Assembly (NCBI GenBank): GCA_951828535.1
Contig: OX639990.1
Location: 2,095,300 to 2,159,299 of the forward strand
Length of the DNA stretch: 64,000 nt
Direction: 5' to 3'
Source: an uncultured Candidatus Entotheonella sp.
GTDB taxonomy: Bacteria > Tectomicrobia > Entotheonellia > Entotheonellales > Entotheonellaceae
How positions within the stretch are numbered: position 1 is the stretch's first letter; every line of letters starts with the position of its first letter. Below are positions 24,506-34,545 of this stretch, piece by piece. Below the pieces are notes generated by a model, which did no database searches, was not told where the DNA came from, and saw only the letters and a list, made by a program, of their open reading frames with translations. The position numbers and the translations under genes are program-made.

Positions 24506-26155
24506 ATGACCGAAATCAGCGGCGGACATCTGGTCGCCCGCGCCTTGAAGGCCGAGGGAGTGGAGGCCATTTTTACCCTCTGCGGCGGCCATATCATCGA
24601 CATTTACGACGGCTGCCTGGATGAAGGCATCCGCATTATCGACGTGCGGCACGAACAGGCGGCGGCGCACGCCGCCGACGCCTGGACGCGCGTCACCGGC
24701 AAGCCGGGCGTGGCGGTGGTGACCGCCGGGCCGGGAACGACGGACACGGTGACGGGCGTGGCCAACGCCTTTCGTGCCCAGACGCCGATGCTGGTCATCG
24801 GCGGCCAGGGCGCCTTCACGCAGATGCACATGGGCTCGCTGCAAGAGCTCGATCACGTCTCCATCATGAAGCCCATCACCAAGTTCGCCTCCACGGTACC
24901 GCACACCGATCGCATCCCCGAACTGATGAGCATGGCCTTCCGGGAAGCCTTTAACGGCCGCCCAGGGCCGGTTTTCCTCGAAATGCCGCGTGACGTGCTG
25001 GACGCCAAGGTCGACGCCGACCGCGTGCGCATGCCCAGCAACTACCGTTCCACCTACAAGGTGCACGGCGACCCCAACGCCATCGCCATGGCCGCCGACT
25101 GGTTTCGCAACGCCGAGCGTCCGGCGGTGCTGGCCGGCAGCCAGGTGCAGTTCTGCCGCGGCGCTGCGGAGTTGGCGCAGTTGGCCGAGCAGGCGCGGCT
25201 GCCGATCTACGTCAACGGCGCGGCGCGCGGCGCCCTGCCGCCGACCCACCCCAACCTCTTCGTCACCTCGCGCCGCCGGGCGCTCAAGGAAGCCGACGTC
25301 ATCATGATCATCGGCACCCCGTTCGACTTCCGCCTCGGCTACGGCCAACGCCTCAACCCGGACGCCAAAGTCATCCAGGTCGATCTGGACTACGGCGAGC
25401 TCGGTCATAACCGCGACGTGTCGCTGGGCATCTGCGGCGACGCCGCGGCGGTGATCGCGCAACTGACCGACGCCATCGCGCCGGGCCACAGCAACTCGGA
25501 CAACTGGCTGCGCACCCTGCGCGAGAATGAAGAGAAGCGCGCCAGCCAGGCGGCCCTCGGACTCAACTCCGATCAGGTGCCGATCCACCCGCTGCGGCTG
25601 TGCAAGGAGATCAACGACTTCCTCACCGAGGACACCGTGTTCATCGGCGACGGCGGCGACATCGTCACCATGTCGGCGTCGGTCATCCGTACCCACAAGC
25701 CCGGGCACTGGCTCGATCCCGGGCCGCTCGGCACCCTGGGGGTCGGCGCGCCGTTCGCCATCGCCGCCAAGGCCGCCATGCCGGAAAAGGACATCTTCGT
25801 GCTGTTCGGCGACGGCGCCTTCGGGCTCACCGGCTTCGACATCGACACCGCAGTGCGCTTCGACCTGCCGTTCGTCAGCGTCGTGGGCAACAACGCCGGC
25901 TGGAACCAGATCCGCTACGGCCAGCTCGCCAAGTACGGCGAGCAAAAGGGCGACGTGGCCAACAAGCTGTCCGCCACGCGCTACGACGTGATCGTCGAGG
26001 CCATGGGCGGCTACGGCGAATGCGTCACCGAGCCCGGCGACATCCGCCCGGCCATGGAGCGGGCGCGCGCCTCGGGCAAGCCGTCGTGCGTCAACGTCAT
26101 CCTTGACCCGGACATCTACAGCAGCGGTACGATGAACCAGACCATGTACAAGTAG
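24506..26155 (+). CDS. Thiamine pyrophosphate-dependent enzyme, acetolactate synthase / oxalyl-CoA decarboxylase-like
   Basis: A 549-residue enzyme with the three-domain layout of the POX/acetohydroxyacid synthase family. The N-terminal pyrimidine-binding domain carries the catalytic Glu50 (VRHEQAAAHAADAW), the middle domain is Rossmann-like, and the C-terminal domain carries the TPP-Mg motif from GDGAFG (435-440) to Asn462-Asn463. The family makes or breaks carbon-carbon bonds next to a carbonyl; members include acetolactate synthase, oxalyl-CoA decarboxylase and 2-hydroxyacyl-CoA lyase. It leads an operon with an unknown protein and a UGSC selenoprotein, so ordinary branched-chain amino acid synthesis is unlikely. 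An AGGAG site precedes the ATG. Confidence 0.88.
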   Translation: MTEISGGHLVARALKAEGVEAIFTLCGGHIIDIYDGCLDEGIRIIDVRHEQAAAHAADAWTRVTGKPGVAVVTAGPGTTDTVTGVANAFRAQTPMLVIGGQGAFTQMHMGSLQELDHVSIMKPITKFASTVPHTDRIPELMSMAFREAFNGRPGPVFLEMPRDVLDAKVDADRVRMPSNYRSTYKVHGDPNAIAMAADWFRNAERPAVLAGSQVQFCRGAAELAQLAEQARLPIYVNGAARGALPPTHPNLFVTSRRRALKEADVIMIIGTPFDFRLGYGQRLNPDAKVIQVDLDYGELGHNRDVSLGICGDAAAVIAQLTDAIAPGHSNSDNWLRTLRENEEKRASQAALGLNSDQVPIHPLRLCKEINDFLTEDTVFIGDGGDIVTMSASVIRTHKPGHWLDPGPLGTLGVGAPFAIAAKAAMPEKDIFVLFGDGAFGLTGFDIDTAVRFDLPFVSVVGNNAGWNQIRYGQLAKYGEQKGDVANKLSATRYDVIVEAMGGYGECVTEPGDIRPAMERARASGKPSCVNVILDPDIYSSGTMNQTMYK

Positions 26156-26174: not shown

Positions 26175-27257
26175 ATGGCAGAACCCGTTGAAGGGCGCGG
26201 CTATGACGTGAACGAGGACATCGACGCCATCGAGTTCTATTTCGAGCGCGGTGTCACCGACGGGTTGCCGGTGGTGCCGCCCACCGAGACGCGAGTGGCG
26301 CGCATGCTGGCCGTCACGGCGCGGCCGGCCGACGAGGTGATCGCCCTGGTGCCGCCGAATTACGGCGCCGCGACGCTTGAGAAGATCGCCATCAACGCCG
26401 TGATGGCGGGCTGCAAGCCGGATTACCTGCCGGTGGTCGTGGCCGGGGTGCAGGCCATGTGCGCCGAGCAGGTCAGCCTGCACGGGGTGCAGGGCACGAC
26501 GCACACCGCCACGCCGCTGTTCATCGTCAACGGCCCGGTGCGACAGCAGCTCGACATCAACTGCGCCACCGGCGTGTTCGGCTCCGGCTGGCGCGCCAAC
26601 GCCACGATCGGCCGCGCCCTGCGGCTGATCATGACCAATCTGGGCGGCGCCCGGCCCGGCGAGATCGACAAGTCCGCCATGGGGCATCCGGGCAAGTACA
26701 CCTTCCTCATCGGCGAGTACGAGGAGGCAAGCCCCTGGGAGCCGCTGCACGTCGAAAAGGGCTACCGGCCCGACCAGAGCGCCGTCAGCGTGTATTGCTG
26801 CGACGCCCCGCAATGCATCAGCAACCACGGCAGCCGCACCGCCGAAGGCATCCTGACTACCATTGCGGCCAGCATGGCGGTGGGCTGGCAACACAAGGCG
26901 TATCTCAACGACAACTGCGCGCTGGTGATTGGGCCGGAACACGCCAAGACCATCGGCGACGACGGCCTGAGCAAACAGGACGTCAAGCGCTTTCTGTACG
27001 AGCAGATGCAGCGGCCGCTGGGCGAGTTGCTGCCCGGCCCGGACGGCGCCGAGGGCGTGTCACGCCAGATCACCTCGCCGGAGCGAATTCCGGAGGGGCT
27101 AGACCTGCGGGACGGCACCACGCTGATTCCCAAGATCACCTCGCCGGACGGCATTACGGTGGTGGTCGCCGGCGGCACCGCCGGACGATTTTCGATTCAC
27201 CTGTCGGGCTGGGGCGCTGGCAGTCGCCTGGCCACGGCGCCGATCGAGTTTGACTGA
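26175..27257 (+). CDS. Conserved protein encoded next to the UGSC selenoprotein
   Basis: I do not recognise a named family for this 360-residue protein. It begins with an acidic segment (FYFERGVTDGLPVVPPTE), then a Gly- and Ala-rich alpha/beta core. Several cysteines stand out: AGCKPDY, LDINCATG and YCCDAPQCISNHGS, the last being a closely spaced group. No signal peptide or membrane span is seen. It starts 19 bases after the TPP gene and ends 29 bases before the selenoprotein, so the three are almost surely cotranscribed. I infer a role in the same pathway, perhaps as a redox or substrate-binding partner. Confidence 0.75.
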   Translation: MAEPVEGRGYDVNEDIDAIEFYFERGVTDGLPVVPPTETRVARMLAVTARPADEVIALVPPNYGAATLEKIAINAVMAGCKPDYLPVVVAGVQAMCAEQVSLHGVQGTTHTATPLFIVNGPVRQQLDINCATGVFGSGWRANATIGRALRLIMTNLGGARPGEIDKSAMGHPGKYTFLIGEYEEASPWEPLHVEKGYRPDQSAVSVYCCDAPQCISNHGSRTAEGILTTIAASMAVGWQHKAYLNDNCALVIGPEHAKTIGDDGLSKQDVKRFLYEQMQRPLGELLPGPDGAEGVSRQITSPERIPEGLDLRDGTTLIPKITSPDGITVVVAGGTAGRFSIHLSGWGAGSRLATAPIEFD

Positions 27258-27286
27258 ACCCGCATACCCCAAAAAAGGAGAAAGCG

Positions 27287-27811
27287 ATGACGAAGTTGTA
27301 CGATCCAACCGCAGCACCGGTGGCCGACGCCGCGAGTCTGGCGGCACGGCTGCCGGACCTGCGCGGCAAGGTGGTCGGCCTGCTGGACATCAGCAAGGCG
27401 CAGGGTAACCACTTCCTGGACCGCATCGAGGAATGGCTGCACGAAACGCACCAGCCCAGCGCCGTCCTGCGGCGCATGAAGCCCACCTTTGCCCGGCCCG
27501 CGCCGGAGGACATGCGCAAGGAACTCGAACAGCAGTGCGATCTGATCATCGAAGCGCTGGCGGATTGAGGCTCCTGCACAACGTGCAGTGTGCACGACGG
27601 CGTTTACTTTGAAAAAGCCGGCATTCCCGTCGCGGTTTGCACCACCACCGAGTTCGCCAACGCCGCCCGCGCCCAGGCCGACGCGCTGGGCCTGTCGGCG
27701 TTCAACGTGATTCTCGTGGAGCATCCCATCCAACCCCTGACCCGCGACGAGGTGCGCCAACGCGCCGAGACGGTGTTCGACCGCGTGGTCGACAAGCTGA
27801 CGGTGGGTTGA
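27287..27811 (+). CDS. UGSC-family selenoprotein (UGA 27566-27568 read as selenocysteine)
   Basis: The frame from 27287 meets a UGA at codon 94, but the same frame continues directly into UGA-GGC-TCC-TGC, which reads Sec-Gly-Ser-Cys, then TTCSVHDGV and on to a TGA at 27809-27811. The resulting 174-residue protein matches the UGSC (seleno)protein family along its whole length: start KLYDPTA, RMKPTFARPAP before the motif, and GIPVAVCTTTEF and VEHPIQPL after it. Sec94 and Cys97 would form a redox pair like CxxC. Its exact reaction is not known. AAGGAGAAAG precedes the ATG. Conventional gene calling would give a false 93-residue protein and a second short fragment. Confidence 0.9.
27569..27600 (+). 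promoter_or_regulatory. Candidate bacterial SECIS hairpin after the UGA
   Basis: Directly after the UGA two alternative hairpins can form. One is CTGCAC/GTGCAG (27574-27579 with 27583-27588). The other is CGTGCA/TGCACG (27582-27587 with 27591-27596) around a GTG loop about 20 bases from the UGA. The second places a G-containing apical loop at the distance usual for bacterial SECIS elements. SelB recognition cannot be proven by eye. Confidence 0.5.
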
Positions 27812-27820
27812 GGTCAGCAT

Positions 27821-28012
27821 TTGCCGAAAGTACGAGAGGCCATCCGCCTGATAGAGCGCGATGGGTGGCAGTTGGTGCCAACTCGAGGAAGCCACCGCCA
27901 GTATCGTCACCCCATTGAGCCGGGCACGGTGACCGTTCCGGGTAAACCGGGTGACGATCTGCCTCCCGGCACTTGGGACAGTATCATGAAGCAGTGCGGA
28001 TTGAAGGCGTGA
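27821..28012 (+). CDS. hicA: HicA-family mRNA interferase toxin
   Basis: A 63-residue protein with the HicA dsRBD-like fold: VREAIRLIERDGWQLVPTRG, then SHRQYRHP with the catalytic His, and a C-terminal helix. The family cleaves mRNA. It starts at TTG with an AGG-containing ribosome site and lies 9 bases after the selenoprotein stop and 8 bases before hicB, forming a toxin-antitoxin module. Confidence 0.88.
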   Translation: MPKVREAIRLIERDGWQLVPTRGSHRQYRHPIEPGTVTVPGKPGDDLPPGTWDSIMKQCGLKA

Positions 28013-28020
28013 AGGAACCT

Positions 28021-28245
28021 ATGAAATACACCGTGGTGATTGAAAAGGCTCCCAGTAACTATGCCGCCTACGTGCCCGACCTGCCCGGCTGCGTGGCGAC
28101 CGGCGCCACCCGGGACGCAGTGTTGGCGGAAATCCGCGAGGCCATCGCCTTCCACATTGAAAGCCTGCGTGAACACGGCGAGCCGGTGCCGGAACCACAA
28201 AGCACCGCCGAGGTGGTGGATGTTGGCGTCACAACGGCGGGATAA
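28021..28245 (+). CDS. hicB: HicB-family antitoxin
   Basis: A 74-residue short HicB with the partial RNase-H fold: YTVVIEKAPSNYAAYVPDLPGC followed here by VATGATRDAVLAEIREAI (given as two pieces). It lacks the extra C-terminal DNA-binding domain found in long HicB proteins. It would bind and block HicA. The ATG is 8 bases after the hicA stop. Confidence 0.88.
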   Translation: MKYTVVIEKAPSNYAAYVPDLPGCVATGATRDAVLAEIREAIAFHIESLREHGEPVPEPQSTAEVVDVGVTTAG

Positions 28246-30557: not shown

Positions 30558-30809
30558 TTATCCGCCCGCGATGGGCGGCCAGATGGCCAGCACGTCACCG
30601 TCGTTCAGCACGGCGCGGTCGCGGTCCCCAGGGGTGAGATACACGCCGTTGTGCAAAACCAGGTGGGCCATGGGGCGGGGGACGCGAAACTGATCGATGA
30701 CTTGGTGCGGCGTGATGTCGAGCGGCACCTCGATCACCACGCCGGTCCAGGGGGTATCGGGGGGCAGGAGGTCACGCAGCGAGGCGTACAACTTCAGGGA
30801 AATCTTCAT
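30558..30809 (-). CDS. aorD: MoaD/ThiS-family sulfur carrier
   Basis: An 83-residue ubiquitin-like protein: KISLKLYASLRDLLP at the start, a middle DGDVLAIWPPIAGG and the C-terminal Gly-Gly that is activated and thiolated in the family. In AOR operons a dedicated MoaD-like protein is thought to serve pterin cofactor (tungstopterin) assembly. A longer upstream frame exists, but the ATG at 30809 overlaps the preceding gene's stop by 4 bases and gives the conserved start. The symbol follows the AorABCDE operon of Aromatoleum. Confidence 0.85.
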   Translation of the reverse strand: MKISLKLYASLRDLLPPDTPWTGVVIEVPLDITPHQVIDQFRVPRPMAHLVLHNGVYLTPGDRDRAVLNDGDVLAIWPPIAGG

Positions 30810-32065
30810 ACAACGCCTGCGTTGTGTCCAATCGCCAGGGTGTTGGCCAGGTAAGCCTCCATGACCCGGGTGGGGTCCTGCATGAGCTTCTGCTTCCACC
30901 CGCGCAGCCGCACCCGCGTTTGAATGAGCCCTCTGATCACGCCGACGTGCTCGGTAAGGCCCAGGCTGCTGGCGCCAACCAGACGGTCGTCCTCAAACTG
31001 CAAATTCAGATAGCGAAAACGCTCGGCGTCCAGAAGTTCCGCCGAGTCCCCGCCTTCAACACCCATCCAGGCACCGAAGGAGCTGGAAATCAGCCCCAGG
31101 GTGTCCAGCACGTTCATGTTCAGGTTGCCGCGGTGCGTCTGCGTGCGGCCGGCCATGTTGCTGGCGGCGATGCGACCGTGATCCGCAGCGGTCGGCTGAA
31201 TGGCCTGCACCGTGTACTGCCCGGTTGAGAAATCCAGCCCCTGCGCCACGTCCCCGGCGGCGTACACGTCGGCGGCGCTGGTCGCCAATTGCGTATCCAC
31301 CAGCACGCCGTAATCGGTGCGGATGCCGGAGCCTTCCAGGAAGTCGATGTTGGGCCGCACGCCCGTCGCCGCGATGACCAGATCGGCGGCCAGCGTGTTG
31401 CCGTTGTTGAGCCTGACCGTCATCGGCTGGCCGGACTCGATGGCCTCGACCTGCGTGGAGGTGAGTACCTTCACCCCCTTGTTCTCGCACCACGCCTTGA
31501 TGAGACCGCCGGCCACGGCATTCATCATGCGCGGCACCATGCGATCCTCCATTTCAACAACGGTCAGATCGGTTCTCCGCGCCGCCAGCGCCTCCAGGAT
31601 GATGCTGCCGATAAACCCGGCGCCCATGAGCACCACCTTGGCGCCCGCCTGGGCGCGCTGCATGATGTCGCGGGCGTCCTGCAGCGTCCAGCAGGCGTGT
31701 ACGCCGGGAGCGTCAATACCGGGCACCGGCGGCGACACCGGCCGCGAGCCGGTGGCGATCAGCAGCTTGTCGTACGACACGTCGGAGCCGCTTTGCAGGG
31801 ACAGGTTCTTGCGCTCCGGCTGCACCCGCGCCACGCGGTCCTGCCGTACCTCGATGTTGTGGTCAGCGTAGTGCCCGCCGGTTTTGCGCAAATGGGTTCC
31901 CGAGGCATCGATCTGGTTGATCAGGAGATAGGGGATGGCCATGCGCGAGTAGGGCGCCTCCGGCTCGTCCCCGATGATGGTGATCTGGGATTCGGCGTCC
32001 AGCTTGCGCAGCGTTTCGGCGGCCACGACCCCGGTGGGTCCGGCGCCGATGATGATGTGATGCAT
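30806..32065 (-). CDS. aorC: FAD/NAD(P)-dependent oxidoreductase of the AOR operon
   Basis: A 419-residue two-Rossmann flavoprotein. The FAD motif is IIIGAGPTGVVAAETL, the NAD motif is VLMGAGFIGSIILEALAAR, and the late FAD motif is VYAAGDVAQ. In the Aromatoleum AOR complex, the homologous subunit links the tungsten enzyme to NAD. The ATG has GGGAGGAA just upstream. An in-frame stretch of 28 codons before it is open but not used. It overlaps the MoaD-like gene by 4 bases. Confidence 0.87.
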   Translation of the reverse strand: MHHIIIGAGPTGVVAAETLRKLDAESQITIIGDEPEAPYSRMAIPYLLINQIDASGTHLRKTGGHYADHNIEVRQDRVARVQPERKNLSLQSGSDVSYDKLLIATGSRPVSPPVPGIDAPGVHACWTLQDARDIMQRAQAGAKVVLMGAGFIGSIILEALAARRTDLTVVEMEDRMVPRMMNAVAGGLIKAWCENKGVKVLTSTQVEAIESGQPMTVRLNNGNTLAADLVIAATGVRPNIDFLEGSGIRTDYGVLVDTQLATSAADVYAAGDVAQGLDFSTGQYTVQAIQPTAADHGRIAASNMAGRTQTHRGNLNMNVLDTLGLISSSFGAWMGVEGGDSAELLDAERFRYLNLQFEDDRLVGASSLGLTEHVGVIRGLIQTRVRLRGWKQKLMQDPTRVMEAYLANTLAIGHNAGVV

Positions 32066-32156
32066 GTGACATTCCTCCCAACCCGGCACGGCAGACCTGC
32101 CGACCGCATCAGCGACGCGCCGCCCCGCTACGGGTGAGCGGGGCGACAAATCGTCA

Positions 32157-34004
32157 TCAGACCCGCAAGCGGCGGCGTGTGTCGTCGCTCAGTTCACCGT
32201 CCTGCGTCCAGCCGCGAATTTCGTAGTAGCGCGGCAGCATCTGCTGGAGATCGTTCACCCTACCCTCTGCCGGGCCGGTATTGGCACCCTCTTCCAGCAG
32301 GCGGTGCGGCAGCGTGTCGTCGGCCATGGTGAGGCCGGCCTTGAGGTTGAAGTCGCGCTCCAGGTTCCAGACGCGCTCGCCAACCTCCAGCATCTTCTCC
32401 GCCGACCAGTCGCCCTCGCAGGCAGCGTCGACCTGCGGCGCGATGTCCTCCATGCCCCAAGCGAAGGTGGTGAAGACGCACAGGCCGGAGGAATCCACCG
32501 CCGCGGTGGCGTCCTGGAAGGCCTTGACGAGTTCCGCCTTGCCTTCCGTCACCAGCGGGTCGGTCTTCTCGGGAATGCCGAGGATTTCCGACGCCACGGT
32601 GTAGGCGCGCAAGTGGCAGGCGCCGCGGTTGGCGGTGGCGTAGGCCAGTCCCATGCCCTGGATGCCGCGCGGGTCGTAGGCCGGGAATTCCTGCCCCTTG
32701 ACCGTCATCGACAGCTCCGGGTGGCCGTACTTCTCACACAGGCGCAGCGAGCCGAGCCCGAGAATCTTGCCGAAGCCTTCGCCGCGGGCGGTCAGCTCGG
32801 TTGCCCTGGCGAGTGCCTCGGCGGAGCCGAATCGCAAGTCGATGCCGCCGGTGTCTTCCTGGGTGATGACGCCGCGCTCGTACAGCTCCATGGCAGCCGC
32901 CACGGTGGCGCCGAACGAGATGGGATCAATGCCGTCCTCGTTGCACAGGAAGTTCACGTAGGTAAGGGTTTCCAGATCGTCAACCCCGGTGTCGCTGCCC
33001 AGAGCCCAGGCCGCCTCGTACTCCAGGCCGCCGGAAGCGCCCCAGTATTTGGGCTTGTTCTCGATGGTGAAGTGGCCCTTCTCGATCGTCGAGATGCGCC
33101 CGCAGGCGATGGTGCAGGCGAAGCAGGCGGCGTTGGTATGCAGGTTCGGGGTGCCGTCGCTGCGCGGCTCGTGCATGGCCTCGGCGGAAATCTTGTGGGC
33201 GCCCTCGAACTGCACCTCGCGCATGTTGCGGGTCGGCATGGCGCCGACTTCGTTGATGACGTTCATCAGCACCTGGGTGCCGAACTTCGGCAGGCCCTGA
33301 CCGGTGACGGCATTTTCCGCCAATACCTTCTTGCCCTGCTCGGTGGCCTGGAAGAAGCGCATAGGGTCCTTCAGGTTGCCGACGCCCTTGGTGCCGCGGC
33401 AGACCAGCGCTTTGAGATTCTTGGCAGCCATGACCGTGCCGACCCCGGAGCGCCCGGCGGCGCGGTGCAGGTCGTTCACCACGGAAGCATACAGGCAGCC
33501 CTGCTCGGCAGCGCGGCCGACGCAGGCGATGCGGATGAGCGGGTCCTGGTGCTTGGCGTGCAGGCGCTCGTCCGTCTCCCATACCGAGGCGCCCCACAGA
33601 TCGTCCGCCGGCATCAGCTCGGCGTTCTCGTTCTCCACGTATAGATACACCGGCTGCGGGGATTTGCCCTCGAAAATGATCATGTCCCAGCCGGCCATCT
33701 TCATCTCGGCGCCGATGAAGCCGCCGGAATTGGAGCACGCCACGGCGCCCGTCAGCGGGCTCTTGGTGACGACGGAATAGCGCCCGCCGGTAGCGGCCAT
33801 GGTGCCCGTCAACGGCCCGGTGGTCATGATCAGCTTGTTGGCAGGGGAAAGCGCGTCAATGGTGGGATCGATTTCTTCATAGAGATACTTGGTGGCAAGC
33901 CCGCGCTGGCCGAGGTAATCGCGCGCCCATTCCCTATTGAGCGGTTCGGAGGCGATCTTGCCGGAGGTGAGGTCGACTCGTAAGACGTTTCCTGTCCAGG
34001 CCAT
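32157..34004 (-). CDS. aorB: Tungsten-containing aldehyde:ferredoxin oxidoreductase, catalytic subunit
   Basis: A 615-residue AOR-family enzyme that oxidises aldehydes to acids (or the reverse) with a bis-tungstopterin and one 4Fe-4S cluster. The cluster cysteines are Cys294, Cys297, Cys301 (CFACTIACG) and Cys509 (SGLCVFTTF). Pterin-binding motifs are in TGGRYSVVTKSPLTG and DPRGIQGMGLAYATANRG. The start at 34004 has AGGAGA before it; an open frame continues 46 codons further upstream but overlaps the ferredoxin gene. The gene lies between the electron-transfer subunits, matching an AOR complex operon. Confidence 0.93.
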   Translation of the reverse strand: MAWTGNVLRVDLTSGKIASEPLNREWARDYLGQRGLATKYLYEEIDPTIDALSPANKLIMTTGPLTGTMAATGGRYSVVTKSPLTGAVACSNSGGFIGAEMKMAGWDMIIFEGKSPQPVYLYVENENAELMPADDLWGASVWETDERLHAKHQDPLIRIACVGRAAEQGCLYASVVNDLHRAAGRSGVGTVMAAKNLKALVCRGTKGVGNLKDPMRFFQATEQGKKVLAENAVTGQGLPKFGTQVLMNVINEVGAMPTRNMREVQFEGAHKISAEAMHEPRSDGTPNLHTNAACFACTIACGRISTIEKGHFTIENKPKYWGASGGLEYEAAWALGSDTGVDDLETLTYVNFLCNEDGIDPISFGATVAAAMELYERGVITQEDTGGIDLRFGSAEALARATELTARGEGFGKILGLGSLRLCEKYGHPELSMTVKGQEFPAYDPRGIQGMGLAYATANRGACHLRAYTVASEILGIPEKTDPLVTEGKAELVKAFQDATAAVDSSGLCVFTTFAWGMEDIAPQVDAACEGDWSAEKMLEVGERVWNLERDFNLKAGLTMADDTLPHRLLEEGANTGPAEGRVNDLQQMLPRYYEIRGWTQDGELSDDTRRRLRV

Positions 34005-34023
34005 GGGGGGTCTCCTCTCGCGG

Positions 34024-34545
34024 CTACTGCGCGCGGTTGTAGGTGGCGATTTCCTTGGGGCGCGGCTCGACGTGGGTGGCCGGTCCCGCCGGGCTCTGCT
34101 GCGCCCAGGCGCGCATGCGGTCCAGGCCGGTGCTGTCGACATCCACGTAGGTGATGGCGCCGGTGGGGCACGCCTTGGCGCACCACGGGTCGCCGCCGCA
34201 CAGATCGCACTTCATCACCTTGCCGGAATCCTGGTTGTAGTTCACGGTGCCGAACGGGCAGGCGATGGTGCACACCTTGCAGCCGACGCAGACGTTGTCC
34301 AGCACTTCCTTGGCGCCCGTTTCGGCGTTGATGACGATGGCCTCAACGGGGCAGGAATGCAGGCACCAGGCTTCCTCGCACTGCGTGCAGGTGTAGGGGG
34401 CAAAGCGCCCTTCTTGATGGAAGGTGAAGACCTTGATGCGGGATTTGGCGGGGTTGAAAACCCCTTCGTTCTCATACGAACAGGCCATCTCGCACTGCAG
34501 GCAGCCCGTGCATTTTTCCGGTTCAAGCTTGAGCGCCCTTAGCAT
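34024..34545 (-). CDS. aorA: Four-cluster ferredoxin-like electron transfer subunit of the AOR complex
   Basis: A 173-residue iron-sulfur protein with four cysteine sets: CTGCLQCEMAC, CTQCEEAWCLHSCP, CVGCKVCTIACPFG and CDLCGGDPWCAKACPTGA, the layout of HycB/CooF-like subunits with four 4Fe-4S clusters. It starts 265 bases from the IS and is the first gene of the minus-strand operon aorA-aorB-aorC-aorD. In the Aromatoleum complex, the homologue forms an electron-conducting filament. Confidence 0.9.
   Translation of the reverse strand: MLRALKLEPEKCTGCLQCEMACSYENEGVFNPAKSRIKVFTFHQEGRFAPYTCTQCEEAWCLHSCPVEAIVINAETGAKEVLDNVCVGCKVCTIACPFGTVNYNQDSGKVMKCDLCGGDPWCAKACPTGAITYVDVDSTGLDRMRAWAQQSPAGPATHVEPRPKEIATYNRAQ

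Follow-up and report, generated by a model that had tools for sequence, protein, structure and literature searches.

A UGSC-family selenoprotein gene with an in-frame UGA and its near-constant partner gene in an uncultured Candidatus Entotheonella

In a 64,000-nt stretch of DNA from an uncultured Candidatus Entotheonella sp. (the window), one reading frame meets a UGA at codon 94 and goes on as GGC TCC TGC (27566-27577 from the UGA onwards) up to a second TGA at 27809-27811. The locus therefore raises the question of whether codon 94 is a stop or a selenocysteine (Sec) codon and, if the latter, what the protein might do. The initial annotation had read the frame through as Sec-Gly-Ser-Cys, and both this reading and its coordinates are confirmed in the sequence. 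The frame opens with an ATG at 27287, separated by 6 nt from the AAGGAG ribosome-binding site (Table 1).

The 174-residue read-through protein exceeds the cut-offs of both the Pfam UGSC model (PF24696; 174.4 bits, cut-off 25) and the NCBIfam equivalog NF041046, 'UGSC family (seleno)protein' (163.8 bits, cut-off 125). Both halves had been proposed to align with this family, and they do so, each alone scoring 64 bits for the part before the UGA and 90 bits for the part after it. The full-length score together with the separate scores of the halves excludes chance as the origin of the read-through frame. Sec occupies the first position of the x-G-S-C motif, where the family has Sec or Cys, and this column is invariant.

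Reading UGA94 instead as an ordinary stop, or as the product of a sequencing error or pseudogene mutation, would fit the standard code, under which only a 93-residue open reading frame (plus strand, 27287-27568) is called, just as the initial annotation expected; that such a call also loses the 'active site', as it went on to say, is something we infer rather than observe. Several lines of evidence argue against a stop or an error. The Sec codon is TGA in the window gene and in its same-genus orthologue alike. Each of the five UGSC genes in the window's own genome has one in-frame TGA, as do nearly all UGSC genes of three relatives in the order, which have more of these genes, and the UGA is therefore not a sequencing error. 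Comparison with the same-genus orthologue (NG86) gave dN 0.071, dS 0.194 and dN/dS of about 0.37 before the UGA, and dN 0.017, dS 0.104 and dN/dS of about 0.16 after it; the sequence downstream of the UGA is under purifying, protein-level selection in this frame. The Sec machinery is complete in the genome (3.6 Mb, a single contig): a tRNA-Sec scores 73.9 bits, over the Rfam cut-off, and is called by ARAGORN as SeC with anticodon tca, selA adjoins selB, and selD is present, all over curated cut-offs. The initial annotation's corollary that the organism must decode selenocysteine is thus borne out; neither an absence of Sec-decoding genes nor homologues with a sense codon other than Cys at this site and a loss of similarity after the UGA were found. 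A conserved hairpin downstream of the UGA (see below) also speaks against a stop. We conclude that the gene is a true selenoprotein gene and a new member of the known UGSC family; Sec incorporation at UGA94 is practically certain, while the probability of a stop, error or pseudogene mutation is negligible. New relative to the initial annotation are four further UGSC genes, the SECIS-type hairpin, a near-constant partner, which we call U1, and a Sec region resembling that of GrdB/PrdB.

Table 1. Positions of features at the UGSC locus, numbered within the window
Feature	Coordinates	Strand	Evidence
Thiamine-pyrophosphate (TPP) enzyme, acetolactate synthase/2-hydroxyacyl-CoA lyase type	24506..26155	+	Pfam TPP_enzyme N, M, C; NCBIfam
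U1, 360-aa partner protein	26175..27257	+	Homologue beside UGSC, or fused to it, at almost every locus
Ribosome-binding site AAGGAG of UGSC	27275..27280	+	Read from sequence
UGSC-family selenoprotein gene, 174 residues with Sec94	27287..27811 (final TGA included)	+	PF24696 and NF041046 over cut-off; read-through translation
In-frame UGA read as selenocysteine (Sec94), motif D-U-G-S-C	27566..27568	+	Sec column invariant in alignments A1 and A4; paralogues and relatives also have TGA
Putative bacterial SECIS hairpin, stem CGUGCA/UGCACG, loop GUG	27582..27596	+	Conservation and covariation

In bacteria, SECIS elements are hairpins that lie shortly 3' of the UGA and whose apical loop begins with G. 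The putative element at this locus has arms at 27582-27587 and 27591-27596, and its triloop starts 20 nt after the UGA. Among the matches listed, the six stem pairs are formed in all 120 of 120 UGSC genes from many phyla, and the triloop at the identical position is GUG, GUU or GUC. The pair +18/+24, both members of which are third codon positions, is C-G in 88 of these genes and G-C in 32, with no mismatches; the search pattern fixed the amino-acid motif, not the third positions. In every one of the 120 genes the stem also exceeds the mean of synonymous-codon shuffles (on average 7.28 versus 5.01 bp). For the 55 nt following the UGA in the window, the minimum-energy fold has no unusual stability (z -0.18) and favours a different hairpin; plain energy folding does not single the element out. 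Its assignment as a SECIS rests on conservation and covariation. A divergent subgroup of fused genes (L041, L048, L057 and L059) lacks the hairpin at +20, and so do half of the Chloroflexi copies; these may have another form.

The U1 gene ends 29 bp before the UGSC start. Its product has no Pfam or NCBIfam match, and sequence and profile searches of the PDB returned no relative of UGSC, U1 or GrdB. In four genomes of the order, a U1 homologue lies beside nearly every UGSC gene or is fused to it C-terminally (one locus of this survey, L043, is cut by a contig end). Additional loci, at least 119, were collected with a degenerate DNA pattern containing the TGA; it selects only Sec forms of the [ST]-x-x-S-[VL]-H-D type, so that Cys forms and other subgroups are under-sampled. 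All of these loci encode UGSC, and they come from Alpha-, Beta-, Gamma- and Deltaproteobacteria, Chloroflexi, Actinomycetota, Acidobacteria, Myxococcota, Rokubacteria, Binatia and Neobacillus. Isolates that carry a UGSC gene include Sheuella amnicola NBD-18 (L130) and Neobacillus bataviensis LMG 21833 (L121). Among the matches listed, U1 is found within 1.2 kb, adjacent or fused, of 108 of 122 UGSC genes (on the same strand in 107), and there are 12 natural UGSC-U1 fusions; the remaining 14 genes comprise 13 at sequence ends and one (L171) without U1. Many Gly, Asn, Arg and Glu residues of U1 are invariant, and the cysteine of its MAGC motif is almost so. The predicted structure of a natural fusion (pLDDT 92.9, pTM 0.92) places the two parts confidently relative to each other; when this model was used for structure searches, the UGSC part dominated the matches.

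Near-constant pairing and natural fusions strongly indicate that UGSC and U1 form a two-subunit enzyme, which, judged from sequence, we consider highly probable. Two cases count against it, namely a U1 gene without UGSC in the window's own genome and the L171 locus mentioned above. The former, the sixth U1 gene of this genome (L209:8661-9689, corresponding to C1:270699-271640), is present in the same-genus genome as well (L210); it may act with a different partner or, in trans, with one of the five UGSC proteins. U1 is very probably the 'Unknown_1' domain that Zhang and Gladyshev (2008, PMC2398784) reported as a fusion partner of UGSC. Both are conserved Cys-containing domains fused to UGSC, although 'Unknown_1' was described as an occasional fusion and U1 is a near-universal neighbour; the two are equated here by description.

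Upstream of U1 lies the TPP enzyme, for which no equivalog cut-off was reached and whose start was chosen at an internal ATG; it probably belongs to one operon with the U1-UGSC pair. The gene order (phosphofructokinase-like ORF, TPP enzyme, U1, UGSC) is kept in the same-genus genome, where the TPP enzyme is 98% identical. A different gene, phosphosulfolactate synthase (ComA; TIGR03849 over cut-off), directly precedes another U1-UGSC pair of the own genome (L047:7461-9882), and this arrangement is likewise kept in the same-genus genome (L051); it is a possible link to organosulfonate chemistry. A further own-genome pair adjoins a DctP binding protein. Recurrent neighbours in other phyla include TctC binding proteins, SDR dehydrogenases, CoA-transferase III, thiolase, acyl-CoA dehydrogenase, enoyl-CoA hydratase, luciferase-like monooxygenase, AMP ligase and SelA/SelB, and one subgroup of pairs has a thioredoxin-reductase-like flavoprotein beside it (neighbour families without a Pfam call were named from sequence). 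Since the neighbouring genes vary, no single pathway is indicated for UGSC-U1.

The fold of UGSC has been described in reviews as likely thioredoxin-like. The predicted structure of the window protein (pLDDT 95.8) consists of alternating strands and helices, with Sec94 at the start of the helix that follows strand 3. Searches with Foldseek and VIA-align returned generic CheY, lumazine-synthase and Rossmann-like matches, mutually tied at Z of about 9-11 and rmsd of about 3 over 110-140 residues; thioredoxin is absent among the structural matches listed, and unlisted families may include one. The model thus suggests a parallel Rossmann-like fold and does not support the thioredoxin-like fold of the literature. 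The protein resembles the UGSC family (NF041046/PF24696; Zhang and Gladyshev 2007, 2008), which it matches over its full length, with Sec in the motif and a UGA followed by a hairpin; the predicted fold differs from the one assumed, and nothing excludes membership.

Aligned with hhalign, the UGSC profile matches the C-terminal Sec region of the GrdB family over 65-84 columns, with Sec on Sec, a probability of 91% and E of about 1e-6; the GrdB-family sequences came from the own and related genomes, each read through its own UGA. In controls, a reversed template gave E 0.28 and the best of 30 column shuffles E 0.047, and masking all Cys and Sec weakened the alignment to a probability of 47% and E 2e-4. 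On the basis of the alignment, the controls and the masking result, kinship of UGSC with GrdB/PrdB (the selenoprotein B of glycine/betaine/sarcosine reductase, and D-proline reductase) is likely, but local. The shared features are a strand, U-G-x-C, a helix and then E-x-x-G-I-P-x; moreover, GrdB proteins too occur as several paralogues with different substrates in one cell. The Pfam GRDB model (PF07355) did not match the window protein, for which only UGSC was reported at E up to 0.001. In contrast to GrdB/PrdB, UGSC lacks the GrdB N-terminal domain and has U1 as its partner instead of GrdE/PrdA. U1 shows no kinship with the GrdB N-terminal domain, and no gene for the pyruvoyl subunit GrdE/PrdA (PF09338) lies beside UGSC, the three PF09338 genes of the own genome adjoining its GrdB genes. 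Therefore, the chemistry of UGSC-U1 need not be GrdB-like.

These GrdB genes are themselves cut by an in-frame TGA. Three are full-length (L066, C1:203980; L070, C1:2938934; L074, C1:1576174), with UGTG, UGTC and UGSC motifs and a GrdE-type (PF09338) gene beside each; the genome is not annotated here as that of an amino-acid fermenter. There are also short proteins that match the GrdB C-terminal half only, with the in-frame TGA in U-P-[VL]-C (own genome L078, C1:1886540, and C1:1217083; relatives L069, L072, L075 and L076), and a Cys-free variant with S-P-L-C (L073). One such short gene has a UGSC-U1 pair about 5 kb away.

Most of the genomes tested have 1-8 UGSC copies and one betaproteobacterium has 19. 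By far the largest set was found in the groundwater Chloroflexi metagenome-assembled genome (MAG) JACPQD01 (5.0 Mb; G012, L188 and L226-L235), where at least 150 UGSC matches exceed the Pfam cut-off and at least 146 UGSC genes have an in-frame TGA; they are mostly fused to U1, and the MAG has one full-length SelB. Mis-binning is possible in a MAG, but many of the copies share contigs of up to 359 kb. In ten stretches of this genome, all 38 UGSC copies have U-G-x-C with TGA, with 38 U1 alongside, and their median pairwise identity is 27%. Family-5 solute-binding proteins account for 28 of the 78 other genes in these stretches; such a gene lies within 300 bp of 17 of the 38 UGSC-U1 pairs, always on the same strand. 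The largest bacterial selenoproteome that we found in the literature has 63 genes (PMC13188914), so that the in-frame-TGA UGSC genes of this MAG alone amount to more than twice the published maximum. As read from these sequences, the massive expansion of divergent paralogues points to substrate diversification.

No function of any UGSC protein is described in the literature that we found, in agreement with the initial annotation, which had called it unclear. The observations above can be combined into a proposed mechanism. On the computational evidence, UGA94 is decoded by SelA, SelB, SelD and tRNA-Sec, helped by the hairpin directly downstream. U1 would provide most of the substrate pocket, bind a small molecule and probably set the specificity. 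Placed where the helix after the third strand begins, the Sec selenolate would attack an electrophilic atom in a small organic molecule, displacing a leaving group from a C-N, C-O, C-S or C-halogen bond. Cys97, which is fully conserved in the UGSC alignments, would then act as the resolving cysteine and attack the selenide, releasing the reduced product and leaving a Se-S bond to be reduced by a donor of the thioredoxin/thioredoxin-reductase type. Paralogous pairs would differ in substrate, as GrdB proteins do, and for the window pair a derivative of a 2-oxo or 2-hydroxy acid may be suspected from the TPP enzyme upstream. Taken as a whole, the chain from UGA94 decoding to a substrate-specific Sec enzyme with U1 is in our judgment reasonably probable; reductive cleavage of the GrdB kind, proposed by analogy, is more tentative and falls a little short of an even chance. 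A working parallel is farACEB of Cloacibacillus porcorum MFA1, a GrdB-like operon proposed to encode a fluoroacetate reductase that cleaves the C-F bond (PMC10838667). There too, a GrdB-like Sec protein is proposed to attack the carbon-halogen bond of a small acid, and the system has its own transporter; however, farACEB uses GrdB/GrdE-type proteins and is anaerobic, and the comparison is one of function, not kinship.

Other functions have to be weighed against this mechanism. If the selenolate served as covalent nucleophile or as leaving group with no net reduction, UGSC-U1 would be a Sec-dependent lyase or isomerase. The invariant residues of U1 and its almost invariant Cys would suit any enzyme class, and the TPP enzyme and phosphosulfolactate synthase adjoining two own-genome pairs agree with such a role, but redox turnover accounts better for the full conservation of Cys97 and for the GrdB-like Sec region, and we regard a lyase or isomerase as unlikely. 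Somewhat less likely still is a general thiol-disulfide oxidoreductase of the thioredoxin-like kind, with U1 as its protein substrate or accessory factor. The UxxC motif, the likely thioredoxin-like fold stated in the literature and the thioredoxin-reductase-like genes beside one subgroup would be expected of such a protein. The high-confidence model argues against it, being a parallel Rossmann-like domain in which Sec follows strand 3 (unlisted folds are possible), and so do the catabolic and transport genes among the neighbours; up to about 150 divergent paralogues in one genome, each with its own U1, are unlike a housekeeping redox protein. Sec has been proposed as a metal ligand in some other selenoproteins (PMC13188914), and UGSC-U1 could by extension bind or detoxify metals or metalloids (Hg, As, Se). 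However, the genes that recur beside the pair are of organic-acid, peptide and CoA types, with no recurrent metal-resistance genes, and this role appears very improbable.

UGSC is among the commonest selenoproteins of aquatic metagenomes; the GOS survey had 255 versions with Sec and 21 with Cys (PMC2398784). The near-constant partner, the GrdB-type link and the paralogues associated with solute-binding proteins turn an 'unknown redox protein' into a testable enzyme hypothesis, and these family-level observations raise the interest of UGSC because its long-open function becomes directly testable. There is about an even chance, in our estimate, that UGSC-U1 pairs constitute a superfamily, so far unrecognised, of two-subunit enzymes that depend on selenium, are specific for their substrates and serve small-molecule catabolism; it would span many phyla, with a huge expansion in at least one Chloroflexi genome. 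Standard gene calling cuts UGSC proteins at the UGA, and a possibly large enzyme repertoire may therefore be hidden. If the Chloroflexi MAG is confirmed, the upper limit of the number of selenoproteins in a bacterium moves.

Two other gene groups of the window were considered as parts of the UGSC system and left out. Directly 3' of UGSC lie a gene for a HicA toxin (Pfam HicA_toxin) and a HicB-like ORF (27821-28245), both of which are absent from the same-genus locus. On the minus strand, genes for an aldehyde ferredoxin oxidoreductase and a pyridine-nucleotide-disulphide oxidoreductase, together with a MoaD/ThiS-like ORF (30558-34142), form a separate cluster of the tungsten/molybdenum type.
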